Source of the DNA: Bacillota bacterium
GTDB taxonomy: Bacteria > Bacillota > Clostridia > Tissierellales > Peptoniphilaceae
Direction of reading: 5' to 3'
Length of the DNA stretch: 64,000 nucleotides
Assembly: GCA_030532225.1 (NCBI GenBank)
Contig: JAUNLQ010000001.1
Span: forward strand, 124,001 to 188,000
Below are positions 2,606 through 52,700 of the stretch, piece after piece (position 1 is the first letter of the stretch; every line of letters starts with the position of its first letter). Both the position numbers and the translations under genes were made by a program. The notes beneath the pieces were generated by a model. That model was not told where the DNA came from. It made no database searches and was given only the letters and a program-made list of their open reading frames with translations.

Positions 2606-3087
2606 TTTTCCTCCCATTTATAATCAGCTGACTTACCGCCAGATTTTTCCAATAATTTTATATCTGTAATTACTATGTCCCTTTGGACAGCCTTGCACAT
2701 ATCATAAATTGTTAGGGCTGCTGTTGCCACTGCAGTTAAGGCTTCCATTTCCACTCCAGTTTCGCCAACCACCTTAGTTGTTGCAATAATTTCAATTTCA
2801 TAGTTTTCTTCATCTAGGACAAAGTCTATGTCTGCTCCAGTTATGGCAATTGGATGGCACATGGGTATAAGGTCAGAGGTTTTTTTGGCTGCCATTATGC
2901 CAGCAACTTGGCTAACAGCTAGAACATCTCCCTTTTTTATGCCCTGGTTAACAAGGAGCCTAAAGGTCTCTTCGTTTAATATAACCTTGGCAGCTGCCTT
3001 GGCTATTCTTGTGGTCTTGTCCTTGGCTGACACATCTACCATTTGTGCCCTGCCTCTTTCATTTAGGTGGGTAAGTTTTTTGTCCAT
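2602..3087 (-). CDS. moaC: Cyclic pyranopterin monophosphate synthase MoaC
   Basis: MoaC acts with MoaA in the first step of molybdenum cofactor synthesis, converting the MoaA product 3',8-cyclo-GTP into cyclic pyranopterin monophosphate. The 161-residue length matches the family. Visible signatures are the N-terminal [18 protein letters not shown]-like strand (here [18 protein letters not shown]), [14 protein letters not shown] (about 77-90) and [20 protein letters not shown] (about 113-132). It begins 1 base after moaA ends and overlaps the MOSC gene by 4 bases, as in a single translationally coupled operon. Confidence 0.96.
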
Positions 3088-3088
3088 G

Positions 3089-4030
3089 TTAACCTCCTAT
3101 GGTGTTCATAAATCTGTGACTATGGCTTGGTCCCTGATCCAAGTTGTGCTTTTCAGGCTTGTTAAAAATCCCCTTGGCCAATGCTTCTTCCAGGTCTTGG
3201 CCCTTAAGGCCCCTAAGATTAATTTCTGTATCTGAATGCAAACAAGGCTTTAGCTTGCCGTCAGCTGTAAGTCTAATTCTGTTACAGTCTTGGCAGAAAC
3301 AAGAGGATATTGGAGATATGAGGCCAATAGTCCCCTGGTAGCCTGGCAGCCTATAAGTTTGGGCCACTCCTTCTACTTGAAGCTTTTCAAGGCTTGGAAG
3401 CTTTTCTAAGACTAGCTTATTGGACACAAAGGCAGAGTCATCCCAGTCTAAAGTTTGGCCAATTTTCATTAGCTCTATAAAGCGAACTTGAATATCTTGG
3501 TCCTTGGTCAGGTCAACTAGGTCTTTAATTTCATGGTCGTTAAAGCCACCGATTAAAACAGAATTGATCTTAACTTTAAGGCCTAGGTCCAAGGCCAGGT
3601 CTATGGCTGCTAAAGTATCTTCTAGCCTGCCTCCCCTAGTTATTTTCCTAAACTTTTCAGGGTCCAAAGTGTCTAGGGAAAAGTTGACCCTAGAAAGGCC
3701 TGCCTCTTTCAAGGACCTGCCATAGCTGGTGAACAGGCCTCCATTAGTCGTTAAGGTAATTTCTTCTATGCCTGGAATGGCAGAAATGTTTCTACAAAAA
3801 TCTACAATTCCCTTTCTAACCAAGGGCTCTCCCCCAGTTAGCCTTATTTTTTTTATTCCAAATTTTGCAGCCTGCCTCACAATTTCCTCTACTTCTTCTA
3901 GGGTCATTATGTCATTGTGGCTGCACTTGTCTATGCCCTCCTGGGGCATGCAATAAAGACAGCGAAAGTTGCACCTGTCTGTTAGGGAAATTCTTAAATA
4001 AGAAATATCCCTATTATAAAAATCTCTCAT
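3089..4030 (-). CDS. moaA: GTP 3',8-cyclase MoaA (radical SAM)
   Basis: MoaA is the radical SAM enzyme that cyclises GTP at the start of Moco synthesis. The protein has 313 residues. The N-terminal radical SAM cluster CNFRCLYC (about 19-26) binds one 4Fe-4S centre, followed by the SAM-binding GGEP motif. A second C-terminal cysteine set, [20 protein letters not shown], binds the second 4Fe-4S cluster that holds GTP. The protein ends in Gly-Gly, the C-terminal double glycine needed for activity in characterised MoaA proteins. It sits between moeA and moaC. An anaerobic, iron-replete cytoplasm is implied. Confidence 0.97.
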
Positions 4031-47496: not shown

Positions 47497-47620
47497 GATT
47501 TTGAAATTTTTTATTTTTTCATATTAATAATATCTACAAAGTTTAATTAGACTTTACCTTTCTAGTTTTTACATTAATTGTTTATTGTCCCTTGACCCAT
47601 ATCTTCACTTTGGTTTTCAG

Positions 47621-47720
47621 CTTCGCCGATTTCTTTACTCAATTGCGACTCGAAATCTTTTTCGTTAACTAGTTGAACTTCAACATTATGAGGGGAAGAA
47701 AGGAGACCTAGGTAACCTCT
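47621..47720. repeat. Dispersed repeat, left-part copy (first of a tandem pair)
   Basis: CTTCGCCGATTTCTT...GCGACTCGAAATCTTTTTCG...GTTGAACTTCAAC is repeated 118 bases later, with few changes. The end GGAGACCTAGG also matches the 8.3 kb copy. Read on the minus strand it allows a 60-residue open frame, but the same frame is stopped in the other copies, so it is not called as a gene. Confidence 0.72.
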
Positions 47721-47738
47721 ATATGCTTTAATTTTTTG

Positions 47739-47995
47739 CTTCGCCGATTTCTTCACTCAATTGCGACTCGAAATCTTTTTCGTTAACTAGTTGAACTTCA
47801 ACGTCATGAGGGGAACTAAGGGGAGCCGAACCCCCTCACGTTCCCCTCCCGACACCCACCCCTTCCTTCACCCACTTCGGCCATTGCATGGAGCTGTGAG
47901 AAGAAAGGCTTGGTTTCGGCAAATAACTTTACTTCGATAAGATTATCTTTTTCCTTGTCTGTAAATTGCTTCGCAATTTTCGCTGTCGCCTTTAG
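47739..47995. repeat. Dispersed repeat, compact full copy
   Basis: Same element as 8229-8590. The arms GAGGGGAAC (47808-47816) and GTTCCCCTC (47840-47848) enclose 23 bases containing a second nested GGGG/CCCC hairpin. The right part holds the CCACCCCTTCC and CATGGAGCTG blocks and ends near a TTGCTTCGCAA hairpin. The central 100 bases of the long copy are absent. Confidence 0.72.
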
Positions 47996-48616: not shown

Positions 48617-50068
48617 TTATCCAAATTTTGCTAGTGTTAATTCGGATATCTTTAAACTTACATCTGTTCCTAAATTATTTATCACTATCTCATGAATTTC
48701 TCCATAGTCCATATTGCGGTTGTTAGAAATAATATTATTATAAAAATATTCAGAAAGAGTATTAGCCTTAATAATTACTATGTTTTGATCTTCAATGTCA
48801 TATTGTACACTAGGAACATATCTAGGTGTTACAACTATTGTGTATTTTGCACCAATAATTTTACGATGTCGTTTTAATCTACCAGCATTTATCCCCACTA
48901 ATTTATTCGATGTAGATTTTGCTTCAACAGCAAACTTCTGAGATATCGTTAAATATAAACACTCTATATCCGTTCTACCAGCACCAGAAAGTTTTTTCGC
49001 CTCAATGTTAATAAACATATTAAATGCCTCTTCTAAGATATCTTCAAATAAATCTGAAGTTTCATTATTAGGATTGTTTGAATATTTATCTATTAACTTA
49101 GGTAAACGAAGCATTTTCGTTTGTATCTGATTTATTTCTTCTCCTATTTCTTTTAAAAGTATATCTGGGTAAAAAGAGTATATCTCTTTTACAACATCTG
49201 ATGATCCTCTTTTTGAATCATTTAATATTATAGGATTTGCTAGAAATGAATATTCTTGCAATAGACTTTCAATATAATCTACAAGTTTTAAGTTTAATGA
49301 AAAATATCCATTATTTATTTTTCGTTTTGTAGGCTTAGATTTACTTTTGGGTTTTTGAGGGTGATACAAGTCAACCGTTTTATCACCCATGTCACGTTTT
49401 ATTATTTTGGCATCTTCTAATAACTTAGAAACATAATATTGCCATTCATATGTGCTCTTAACGATAGCCGCCTCATTATTTTTTAGATATTGGAACTTTT
49501 GTTCATCAGCTAATTTTCTAGACAAAAGAATATCTGACACTAACCTTTCATATGTTTCTTCAGATATTTTGTCTAGATAAATAATAAATCGATATATTTC
49601 AAAATTATACAATTTTCCACCTAGTCGTTCATCCAAAAGTAATTTAAATATTAGTCTAAAAGGATATAAATAAAAATTCTCACTTGGGAAACTAGCTGGA
49701 TGCGGAAACTGAATACTAAAAAGCATTGTAGCAAATATTTTTTGTATTTTTTCAGAATCAGACAAGTATTTTAAAAATAAATTCCCTAAGGGACTAAAAA
49801 TAAATTTTTCTTCACCATCAATTTTATCAGAATATCCGAACATATAATAATTTAATTCTCTAATCCTATGACTCATTGCATCTATAGGTTTCTCTCTAAT
49901 AGAATCTCTTGGGTTGTACATCAAACTTCTTGAAAATTCATCATACATCTTTTCTTTATCTTCACTTGAAATCGAAGATTTTGTTGATTTCAAATACAAA
50001 GCAACATCAACTAATTTAGTGATGCTATTTGTATGTTTTTTAAATATCCAATGTCTTCTATTCTCCAA
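48617..50068 (-). CDS. Putative type II (probably IIS) restriction endonuclease
   Basis: Large protein (about 483 residues) encoded last in an operon with two cytosine-5 methyltransferases and a small regulator, so it is most likely the matching endonuclease. The C-terminal third carries a PD-(D/E)xK-like pattern: [12 protein letters not shown] ... [11 protein letters not shown] (D about 367, E about 382, K about 384 counted from this start). The rest is helical and basic and may bind DNA; overall it recalls AlwI/FokI-like type IIS enzymes but I cannot assign a family. Start: an ATG at 50128 would overlap the methyltransferase by 71 bases, whereas TTG at 50068 follows GGAGGGG by a normal distance and overlaps by 11. 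Confidence 0.75.
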
Positions 50069-51134
50069 AATATTCCCCTCCATTTGGGAAGCAAATTTTT
50101 TCAAGTAGTTTGGGAGGTATTGCTTCACCTATTATTGTACGTATAAATGTATCAGAAGTGTTCTCAGGAAACTCTATATTAGGGCTTATAGAGCTTACAA
50201 TAAAGGTTTCTAATAAACTAAGAACTCTAGGATCAGAATAAGTTCCGTCTTTTTTAATTCTTCCTGGGTGCACGTTATTGTGAGAACTTATACTGCCACT
50301 ATAAGTTGTTCTTGCCGGGGCTGGTTCATCCCAAGTCATACGCTTATATGTGTTATGAAACCCTTTAATTCTTTCTCCATTTTCTTTTTTAGGATAGTAA
50401 ACTTCGTTACTAATAGCACTTGTCCCTGGTTTTGTATGTCTTAAACATTCTATAATTTGGTCTCGCGCCTTATTTGCATAGTGCCATTTAAGTTTCGAAT
50501 TTTCTCCAGGCTCTAATGAAGGAAGGAATCCAATAGCTTCTCTCAAGGAAATCTCTTTTTCTTTACTAGGCCAATTCCAAATTAACCCTTTTTTATAAAG
50601 TTTAATTATTGATCGTGGTCTTGATTGAGCAATTCCATAATCTTTAGCATTGATTACTCTAGATTCAATATTGTAGGTAGATGAATACTTTATTTCTAAT
50701 ATTTCATTCAATTTTAAAAAATCATTTCTATATGGAAAATACATTTCCAAGAATTTCGGAACATTTTCAACTAATATATAGTCTAAATCTAACTTGTCAA
50801 TAAATTCAAAAATCTCAAAAATCAAAAAGTTACGCTCATCTCTTTCAAAATCTTTTTGAAATTTATTTTTACCAACAGTACTCAATCCTTGACAAGGAGG
50901 AGTTACTAATAAAAATTTTACATTATTATCACAAGCTTCAGCAAGTATCTTATTCTTTATTTCTTCATCCAAAATATTGCCTTGAATCATTTTTGTATTG
51001 GGGTAGAAAAACTCATATGTTTTAGCACGCTTTTCTAACAACTCATTGGCTACAACAAAGTTTACATTGTTGTTATGAATATTTAATTCTCCGATTCCGG
51101 CACTTGAGAACAATGACATAGCATTAATTTTCAT
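50058..51134 (-). CDS. DNA cytosine-5 methyltransferase, second of pair
   Basis: Methylates the C5 of cytosine in a specific DNA site, protecting it from the co-encoded endonuclease. 358 residues. Motifs in order: [24 protein letters not shown] (catalytic Cys), [31 protein letters not shown], a short target-recognition region with [15 protein letters not shown] and HNNVHPGR, and [14 protein letters not shown]. It closely resembles the preceding methyltransferase throughout, suggesting a gene duplication. Each probably modifies one strand of an asymmetric site. It overlaps the first methyltransferase gene by 11 bases. Confidence 0.93.
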
Positions 51135-52194
51135 CGATAAATATCCCTCTACTTATTTTTTCTACAAATAAAGGAGGTATTGATTCTCCAATAACTTGTC
51201 TTATTAGTATTTCATCTGTTTCCTCATTAATAGGCCAATCATCAGGCAGTGTAGTTAATCTCATTAATTCTAATATAGATAACACTCTTGCATCAGAGTA
51301 AGTACCATCTTCTAGTTTTCTGCCAGGGTGTACGTTTCTTTGTGAGCTAATCGCATCATTTCTTATTGTAATAGTTGGTGCGGGCTCATTCCAATTTATT
51401 CTTCTATACGTTGTATTATAACCTTTTATTCTTGTACCATCCTTTTTTTGTGGAAAATATACCTTATTATCAAATGCGGTTGCACCAGTTGGTGTATTTT
51501 TCATCCATTGTATATGTTCTTCTGAATGCATACGACCAAAATGCCACTTTATATTACTTCTTTCCCCGGATTCAATCGATGGCAAATCTCCTATAGCATC
51601 TTGAACCGTTATTTTCTTATTTGATTTTTCGGGCAATTCCCAGATTAATCCTTTTTGCTTAAGTCTAATAATAGCCCTTTTTCTAACTTGTGGAACATCA
51701 TAATCTGATGCATCTAATACTCTACAGTCAATATCATAGCTGTTTTTGAATTCTTCTTCTAATAAATCCTCAACAGATTTAAAATCTTTATTTATATATA
51801 GTTGTAGTTTTAATAACCTAGGTACATTTTCTATTAAGATAAATTTAGGTTTTACAACTTTAATCATTTTAACAACATATTTAATTAAATAGTTTCTTTG
51901 ATCATTTGCCATTTCAAATATTCCTCTATTCTTACCAGCTATACTAATACCTTGGCAAGGAGGAGATGCAATTAAATAATCAACCTTATTTTCTAAAGCT
52001 ATTTTTGCGATATTTTCAAAAATTATAGGGTCTCTAATATCTCCTTCTATCATAGTAGTATTGGGATATATATTTCGATAAAGTTCTGCTCTTCTGGAAA
52101 TAATTTCATTAGCTACAACGATATTAATTCCAATTCTAGATAAATAAAATTCACCTATCCCAGCCCCAGAGAACAAAGACATACCATTCATCAC
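51124..52194 (-). CDS. DNA cytosine-5 methyltransferase, first of pair
   Basis: 356 residues with a full set of m5C motifs: [13 protein letters not shown] (about 6-17), [45 protein letters not shown], recognition region with [19 protein letters not shown] and QRNVHPGR, and [14 protein letters not shown]. Motif order is the normal I-VI-VIII-TRD-IX-X. It starts 4 bases inside the upstream HTH gene (ATGA overlap). The pair of similar enzymes plus one endonuclease is the arrangement known from type IIS systems with cytosine methylation, such as HgaI. Confidence 0.94.
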
Positions 52195-52436
52195 TCACTA
52201 CGCTCATTTCTATTAAATTTATCTATATGTATTGGACTTATTTTATATTCCAATACTTCTCCTACATCACACTTAAAATACTTACAAATTCTTCCTAATA
52301 TTTCCATACTTACATTCTCATCTCTGCCTATTTTGGCAATGATTCGAGGACTTGTTACTATGGCCTTTTTTAAGTCTAGTTTTTTCATTTTTTCGTCAAA
52401 TAATTTTCTCCATAATCTATCATAGGAAAATCCCAT
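52191..52436 (-). CDS. Small XRE-type helix-turn-helix regulator
   Basis: 81 residues: an HTH of the Cro/CI (YozG-like) class, SYDRLWRKLFDEKMKKLDLK, SPRIIAKIGRDENVSMEILG and RICKYFKCDVGEVLEY. As the first gene of the restriction-modification operon it is in the position of a controller (C) protein, which delays nuclease expression when the system enters a new cell; some such regulators are simple repressors. SD TAGGAG precedes the ATG. The operon order regulator-M-M-R supports timing control (inference). Confidence 0.88.
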   Translation of the reverse strand: MGFSYDRLWRKLFDEKMKKLDLKKAIVTSPRIIAKIGRDENVSMEILGRICKYFKCDVGEVLEYKISPIHIDKFNRNERSE

Positions 52437-52468
52437 CTTGGACTCCTAAGAATCTCACTTTATATAAT

Positions 52469-52474
52469 ATTATA
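52469..52474 (-). promoter_or_regulatory. Candidate -10 of the restriction-modification operon, at the ISL3 junction
   Basis: Minus-strand TATAAT sits about 33 bases ahead of the regulator ATG and exactly where the ISL3 reading frame ends. No good -35 is visible at 17 bases; a controller protein may assist it. Confidence 0.45.
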
Positions 52475-52700
52475 CTACATTTAGCATCATAATATTTATA
52501 TCTCTTAATTTCTGTATTCTTTTATGGTGATAATGAAGCTTTTTGTTCCCACAATTAGGACAACACTCTGGCTTAGCTTTCTTTAAAGACATTGAAATAT
52601 CTATTGATTTATCTAAACTCTTTACATTTTTAACTTTAAAATCTTTTAATCCTAAAAATTTTATGATATTATTGTTACACACTTGTATCTCTCCTTTCAT
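52470..52700 (-). pseudogene. ISL3-family transposase, N-terminal stump
   Basis: 76 codons carrying the N-terminal zinc-finger region of ISL3 transposases: IIKFLGLKDFKVKNV, CCPNCGNKKLHYHHKRIQK and LRDINI, after which the frame diverges (MMLNVV) and stops. Full transposases have about 400 residues, so over 80% is missing. GTG behind AGGAGAG may be the original start. The restriction-modification operon begins immediately at the break, implying replacement or deletion of the rest of the element. Confidence 0.85.

Follow-up and report, generated by a model that had tools for sequence, protein, structure and literature searches.

A candidate HgaI-type type IIS restriction-modification operon led by a helix-turn-helix gene in a Peptoniphilaceae genome

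Gene content and setting of the operon

We analysed a restriction-modification (R-M) operon in a 64,000-nucleotide stretch of contig JAUNLQ010000001.1 (assembly GCA_030532225.1, positions 124,001 to 188,000) from a bacterium of the family Peptoniphilaceae; this whole stretch is referred to as the window. The operon lies on the minus strand at positions 48617-52436 and consists of four overlapping genes, which encode, in order, a small helix-turn-helix (HTH) protein, two C-5 cytosine (m5C) methyltransferases, here named Ma and Mb, and an endonuclease, R (Table 1). All four open reading frames (ORFs) were confirmed, in the order given by the initial annotation of this DNA, with overlaps of 4 nucleotides between HTH and Ma, 11 between Ma and Mb and, with the ATG start of R, 26 between Mb and R. 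The operon is real and looks intact, and its arrangement is that of an HgaI-type system, in which a pair of neighbouring m5C methyltransferase genes stands ahead of a single endonuclease gene. It does not fall into the class of R-M systems controlled by C proteins, in which, according to PMC12376442, the controller lies directly upstream of R and the methyltransferase gene on the opposite strand; here the HTH gene precedes the methyltransferase genes and all genes share one strand. A literature search did not find the operon in the papers listed, although this does not establish that nothing has been published on it.

The start of R was placed at the ATG at 50083 by comparison with relatives, and residues are numbered from it; alternative starts are a GTG at 50128, giving 503 residues (ORF 48617-50128), and a TTG at 50068 behind GGAGGGG. 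At the Mb/R junction, a terminator-like stem-loop (50073-50091) was called on both strands, in a region with five terminator-like sites against a shuffle mean of 1.6. This stem-loop could dampen expression of R, or could be a chance occurrence.

The HTH protein matches PF13443 (HTH_26, E 7e-10) and, at 62.3 bits, stays under the cut-off of 150 of the VanU-like NCBIfam model. Judging from the position of its gene, HTH-timed expression of the operon, as initially suggested, is plausible. A palindrome ahead of the HTH gene (arms 52466-52473 and 52489-52496) was considered as an operator and rejected as within chance, being equalled in 166 of 1000 dinucleotide shuffles. A promoter scan gave 18 sites against a shuffle mean of 28.8, none of them on the minus strand at the start of the operon.

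The operon forms a G+C-poor island, its G+C fraction being 0.296 compared with 0.373 in the window. A genome of the same genus, G002, is collinear with the window up to 47494 on the left flank and up to 52820 on the right. In that genome the two flanks stand about 120 kb apart and no R was found, so the operon occupies a site of rearrangement and appears to have been acquired. The truncated N-terminus of an ISL3-family transposase (52470-52700, minus strand; zinc ribbon PF14690, E 4e-7) abuts the promoter region of the R-M operon with its end. To the left of the island (47608-47824), a 99-nucleotide stretch occurs twice, the copies being 90% identical and spaced 118 nucleotides from start to start.

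Table 1. Features of the operon, with positions in the window
Feature	Positions	Strand	Basis
HTH (XRE) small regulator, 81 aa, first gene	52191..52436	-	PF13443 HTH_26; AGGAG ahead
Ma, m5C methyltransferase, 356 aa	51124..52194	-	PF00145, E 1e-59
Mb, m5C methyltransferase, 358 aa	50058..51134	-	PF00145, E 1e-40
R, predicted type IIS endonuclease, 488 aa from ATG	48617..50083	-	PADLOC PDLC03533
R N-terminal half, residues ~2-305, predicted winged-helix DNA-recognition part	49169..50080	-	BpuJI/FokI-like model
R C-terminal half, residues ~324-481, predicted PD-(D/E)XK nuclease domain	48641..49114	-	R.BspD6I small subunit/HindIII-like model
D372 codon, first catalytic acid of R	48968..48970	-	D in 10/10 aligned members
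E387-A388-K389 codons, (E/D)xK motif of R	48917..48925	-	E/D and K in 10/10 aligned members

The endonuclease: family and predicted fold

R had at first been left without a nameable family. It gives a nearly full-length match to a PADLOC type II endonuclease model, PDLC03533 (418 bits, E 1.3e-125), covering residues 26-490 of the 503-residue form, and no significant match was found in Pfam or NCBIfam. The D...ExK motif already pointed out near its C-terminus corresponds to D372, E387 and K389, with E347 in the preceding helix. These four columns hold E, D, E or D, and K in all ten aligned members, window R included, consistent with a PD-(D/E)XK endonuclease. R is 48% identical, over 480 columns, to the R of locus L043, and 27-32% identical to eight of the nine aligned relatives.

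An AlphaFold2 prediction of R from eight sequences gave a best model, out of five, with a predicted local distance difference test score of 79.7 and a predicted template modelling (TM) score of 0.71; the other four models scored 67-73. When this model was compared with the PDB using Foldseek, FokI (2fok) came first (E 3.9e-7, TM-score 0.24, root-mean-square deviation (rmsd) 24 over the chain), followed by the BpuJI recognition domain (E ~4e-4 to 8e-4) and HindIII (2e-3). VIA-align matched N.BspD6I over the R chain with Z 19.6 at an rmsd of 22.6, a value that we read as reflecting domain movement. Taken separately, residues 2-305 aligned with the BpuJI recognition domain (2vla; Z 16.4, 255 residues, 3.8 A), and the C-terminal part with the small subunit R.BspD6I2 (2p14; Z 13.5, 153 residues, 3.1 A) and with HindIII (2e52; Z 13.1). 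As modelled, R is built of an N-terminal recognition part and a separate C-terminal PD-(D/E)XK domain, the type IIS design of HgaI. The recognition half is less conserved than the nuclease half in the comparisons with L043 (43 versus 57% identity), L008 and L013 (27 versus 40%) and L038 (26 versus 37%), but not in those with the other five aligned relatives.

Relatives of the operon and history of the twin methyltransferases

A scan of the named genomes with the Ma/Mb alignment identified 16 loci, seven of which have a full-length R after the methyltransferase genes. Two of the seven (L005, L009) read M-M-R with both methyltransferases of the Ma/Mb kind. In the remaining five (L008, L010, L012, L013, L019) R follows one enzyme of the Ma/Mb kind, which is itself preceded by an m5C enzyme that seems to belong to another family; the other family was assigned by a family scan for L008 and by weak blastp matches for the remaining four. 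Genomes were also searched with PDLC03533, each time excluding the start genome. Full-length R was found in none of 397 genomes of the phylum, none of 248 of the order (one partial match dropped), 1 of 394 of the class of L008 (the genome of L019; two partial matches dropped), 1 of 247 of the order of L007 (one partial match dropped), 1 of 339 of the class of L006 and 3 of 297 of one further order, whose matches read TGA as an amino acid and are therefore mollicutes by inference.

Overall, a full-length R stands behind at least one methyltransferase of the Ma/Mb kind in 12 other distinct loci, seven reached through the methyltransferases, a route with the link to R built in, and five through the R model alone (L032, L038, L039, L040, L043). 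Among the latter, L032, from the order of Arcobacter, and L039 and L040, from mollicutes, read M-M-R, and L038 has a mixed methyltransferase pair. L033 shares its contig with L019, and L034 shares one with L005; each contig was counted once. No relatives of R were found in plasmids or phages (tblastn, E 1e-5), in viral contigs (peptide scan) or in genome contigs searched from R alone. Short partial matches to PDLC03533 at L003, L028, L029 and L031 (E 1e-4 to 1e-3) were dropped as chance; L003 has no R-M genes at the locus.

The operon at L043 (genome G1539, from the class of Candidatus Ruthturnera) is like that of the window in having an HTH gene directly upstream, an m5C enzyme 55% identical to Ma and the R described above. 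It differs in its gene order, HTH-M-R-N6/N4 methyltransferase: the second enzyme is a DPPY amino-methyltransferase encoded downstream of R (2952-3581; PF01555, PADLOC PDLC03386), in place of a second m5C enzyme. L043 is the only one of the 12 loci found to have an HTH gene directly upstream, possibly an undercount, as ORFs of at least 45 residues within 900 nucleotides were read by eye and compared by blastp with the window HTH protein, and the Pfam scan of upstream ORFs covered L043 only. HTH_3 is the best match of the L043 protein, with HTH_26 among the weaker ones.

Several loci show other combinations. In Arcobacter vandammei (L007, 5992-8149), a single methyltransferase of the Ma/Mb kind is followed by a 370-residue protein in which only the N-terminal part of R is present, joined to an HNH domain; this possible swap of the cutting half was not counted among the 12. 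At L004 (3154-5113), a single methyltransferase of the same kind precedes a 304-residue protein for which neither Pfam nor PADLOC gave a significant family and which may be a different type of endonuclease. A small ORF ahead of the twin methyltransferases of L009 (4056-4358) resembles the N-terminal extension of M1.LlaJI (~31% over 72 residues) and is perhaps a separate regulator. In Candidatus Ruthturnera, close to the end of a contig, a DPPY amino-methyltransferase gene (658-1440) has as its neighbour the last 53 residues of an R (L041, 1462-1620), kept as a fragment only, and an m5C gene of the Ma/Mb kind lies near the end of another contig (L006).

Ma and Mb are both C-5 cytosine methyltransferases (PF00145) with PPCQG, ENVP and QxRxR motifs, and are 44% identical over 347 columns; Ma, Mb and M2.LlaJI also share the same best-matching PADLOC model. 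We constructed a midpoint-rooted tree of 32 methyltransferase rows, which include LlaJI and none from MhoVI or HgaI. It omits L017 (5' end cut), L018 (88 residues) and L022 (distant) and, as belonging to the other family, the first methyltransferase of L038 and those of the L008 group. From M1.LlaJI, and likewise from the first enzymes in L016 and L021, 90 N-terminal residues were trimmed. Ma and Mb fall into a set of 14 rows (support 100/99) with the pairs of L005, L009, L032, L039 and L040 and the enzymes of L043 and L006; they thus group with enzymes of M-M-R operons, apart from LlaJI, whose rows lie outside this set. Within it, Mb, on a long terminal branch (0.74), belongs to an eight-row set (99/99) with the second enzymes of L005, L009, L032, L039 and L040 and the first enzymes of L005 and L009, whereas Ma groups with the gammaproteobacterial enzymes of L043 and L006 (90/89). 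Each is therefore nearer to enzymes elsewhere than to the other, and the two are old paralogues. The paralogy initially proposed for them holds, but a duplication within this operon does not.

Recognition site and competing explanations

RM.MhoVI of Mycoplasma hominis is presented as an HgaI homologue in PMC12376442, with genes in the order XRE-M1-M2-R on one strand and with GA(mC)GC/G(mC)GTC methylation seen by nanopore sequencing and HgaI protection. We compared it with the operon through the primers printed in Table 1 of that paper; eleven RM.MhoVI primers were translated with TGA read as Trp, the best open frame of each being kept, and M1_R1 and the flanking primers were left out. Three R.MhoVI primer peptides (RFSQMCF, ALQYPHP and IVVAPRFS) matched the R family, each with 0 of 100 shuffles as good, indicating that the R families are kin; their best rows were L032 (29% identical to window R) and L040 (27%). 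The methyltransferase primers M1_R2, M2_R1 and M2_F also beat all 100 shuffles. The two systems are alike in gene order, in their m5C enzymes (362 and 358 residues and 49% alike in MhoVI; 356 and 358 residues and 44% here), in the size of R (520 and 488 residues) and in R peptides of the same family. They are unlike in that window R, by sequence, belongs to a subgroup far from that of R.MhoVI, and kinship of their HTH proteins is unproved, the XRE_R peptide being weak (4 of 100 shuffles as good) and XRE_F giving no match (34 of 100). HgaI of Haemophilus gallinarum, a type IIS system specific for GACGC, likewise has two m5C enzymes, one per strand (PMC12376442).

LlaJI, from the Lactococcus plasmid pNP40, is specific for GACGC/GCGTC and has a McrBC-like R2, according to PMC1459862. 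It too has twin m5C enzymes, and M1.LlaJI is 43% identical to Ma. It is unlike the window operon in having two restriction genes, R1 (annotated as an AAA ATPase) and R2 (annotated as a LlaJI family endonuclease), instead of one predicted type IIS protein, and has no ORF of at least 45 residues on that strand within 900 nucleotides ahead of M1. The midpoint root separates LlaJI from the relatives nearest MhoVI, and this makes GACGC the simplest state for the branches between them.

Base composition was examined by comparing five-mers in 389,450 of the 1,427,534 bases of the window's own genome with those in 399,801 bases of a same-genus genome without R. GACGC was rarer in the own genome (rank 17 of 484 five-mers with enough counts) and its deamination products GATGC and GACAC were commoner (ranks 439 and 443). 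This is a weak shift in the direction of GACGC methylation, and a hint only, because GACGC is below expectation in both genomes (0.75 and 0.88).

Together, these observations suggest, with a probability that we put at about 0.8, that the operon is a horizontally acquired HgaI-type type IIS R-M system, most likely specific for GACGC. HgaI cuts at 5/10, and FokI cleaves after pairing of two molecules. In the proposed mechanism, the site would be asymmetric and five bases long, most likely 5'-GACGC-3'/5'-GCGTC-3', with Ma and Mb each methylating a cytosine on one of its strands, much as the initial annotation had envisaged for paired enzymes as in HgaI. That comparison with HgaI now seems to reflect common descent more than analogy. 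R would bind the unmethylated site through its N-terminal winged-helix half, and its C-terminal PD-(D/E)XK half would cut a few bases outside the site, probably after two R molecules pair as in FokI, thereby destroying incoming DNA. The HTH protein, probably co-transcribed, may tune the promoter of the operon so that modification leads restriction. Because L043 has an amino-methyltransferase and adenine occurs on only one strand of GACGC, the GCGTC strand there would be expected to fall to the Ma-like enzyme; by extension, Ma here would be the M1-like, G(mC)GTC-strand enzyme, and Mb, tentatively, the M2-like enzyme of the GA(mC)GC strand.

Several observations weigh against this interpretation or parts of it. 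R is only 27-29% identical to the R proteins of L005, L009, L032, L039 and L040, the group taken as nearest to R.MhoVI, so that its recognition site could have drifted. HgaI was set beside the operon by description and MhoVI by primer peptides, not by full sequences, and three of the methyltransferase primers gave weaker matches (M1_F, 2 of 100 shuffles as good; M1_F2, 4; M2_R2, 6). The root of the tree is a midpoint only, LlaJI is the sole directly characterised system among its rows, the placement of Ma is moderately supported, and single-methyltransferase systems within the tree (L004, L007, L011, L014) suggest that specificity has changed in places. GACGC is not depleted in the window (12 found, 8.7 expected), and 16 of the 484 five-mers fell further than it did in the genome comparison. 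Finally, PMC12376442 contradicts itself over the strand of M2.MhoVI, with GA(mC)GC (80.1%) in the results and GCGTC in the discussion, which is why the strand assignments above are tentative.

The initial annotation regarded the operon as the window's best candidate for a new enzyme specificity. Such a specificity is possible but unlikely, because LlaJI, which is represented in the methyltransferase tree, and MhoVI, linked to the operon by primer peptides only, both modify GACGC/GCGTC (PMC1459862, PMC12376442). A system of the same twin-m5C, FokI-like type IIS kind with a changed asymmetric site, one or two bases from GACGC, would fit the low identity of R to most relatives, the less conserved recognition half in the comparisons with L043, L008, L013 and L038, the long branch of Mb and the single-methyltransferase relatives, which imply that sites can change; we nevertheless consider it improbable, as LlaJI and the relatives nearest MhoVI have one site in common across the midpoint and both Ma and Mb fall inside the set of M-M-R enzymes. 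In a related and equally doubtful proposal, window R and the R of L043, its nearest relative, would form a separate HgaI-like branch with an exchangeable second-strand partner, led by HTH genes of more than one type and maybe directed at a site other than GACGC.

Loss of activity is less probable still. A captured island that is decaying or silent, its restriction activity lost, would account for the insertion sequence remnant, the rearranged flanks and the long Mb branch, but each of the four reading frames is open and overlaps its neighbour, and none of the motifs checked in the three enzymes is damaged. The similarity of Ma to M1.LlaJI and the PADLOC model shared with M2.LlaJI might also bring to mind a LlaJI-like system, with twin m5C enzymes and a GTP-driven, McrBC-like nuclease. 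The gene content already contradicts this, with a single R gene and no AAA or GTPase domain in Pfam, the predicted fold of R is FokI/BspD6I-like, and Ma and Mb lie outside the LlaJI branch; we give this alternative almost no weight.

The HgaI-type, probably GACGC-specific reading has modest novelty, since the HgaI kind itself is already known. What is new is an R subgroup far from that of R.MhoVI and a further HTH-led operon outside Mycoplasma: according to PMC12376442, an XRE gene accompanies an HgaI-type cassette only in M. hominis, four other species being compared, and the window operon together with L043, whose HTH differs, shows that this R family has operons led by an HTH gene in other organisms too. 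An anonymous endonuclease can thereby be given a family, a predicted fold and a site that is open to testing. One R family with an exchanged strand enzyme, which may be an m5C enzyme of this family, an m5C enzyme of another family or an amino-methyltransferase, also amounts to a small natural experiment on how two unlike half-sites are protected in type IIS systems.

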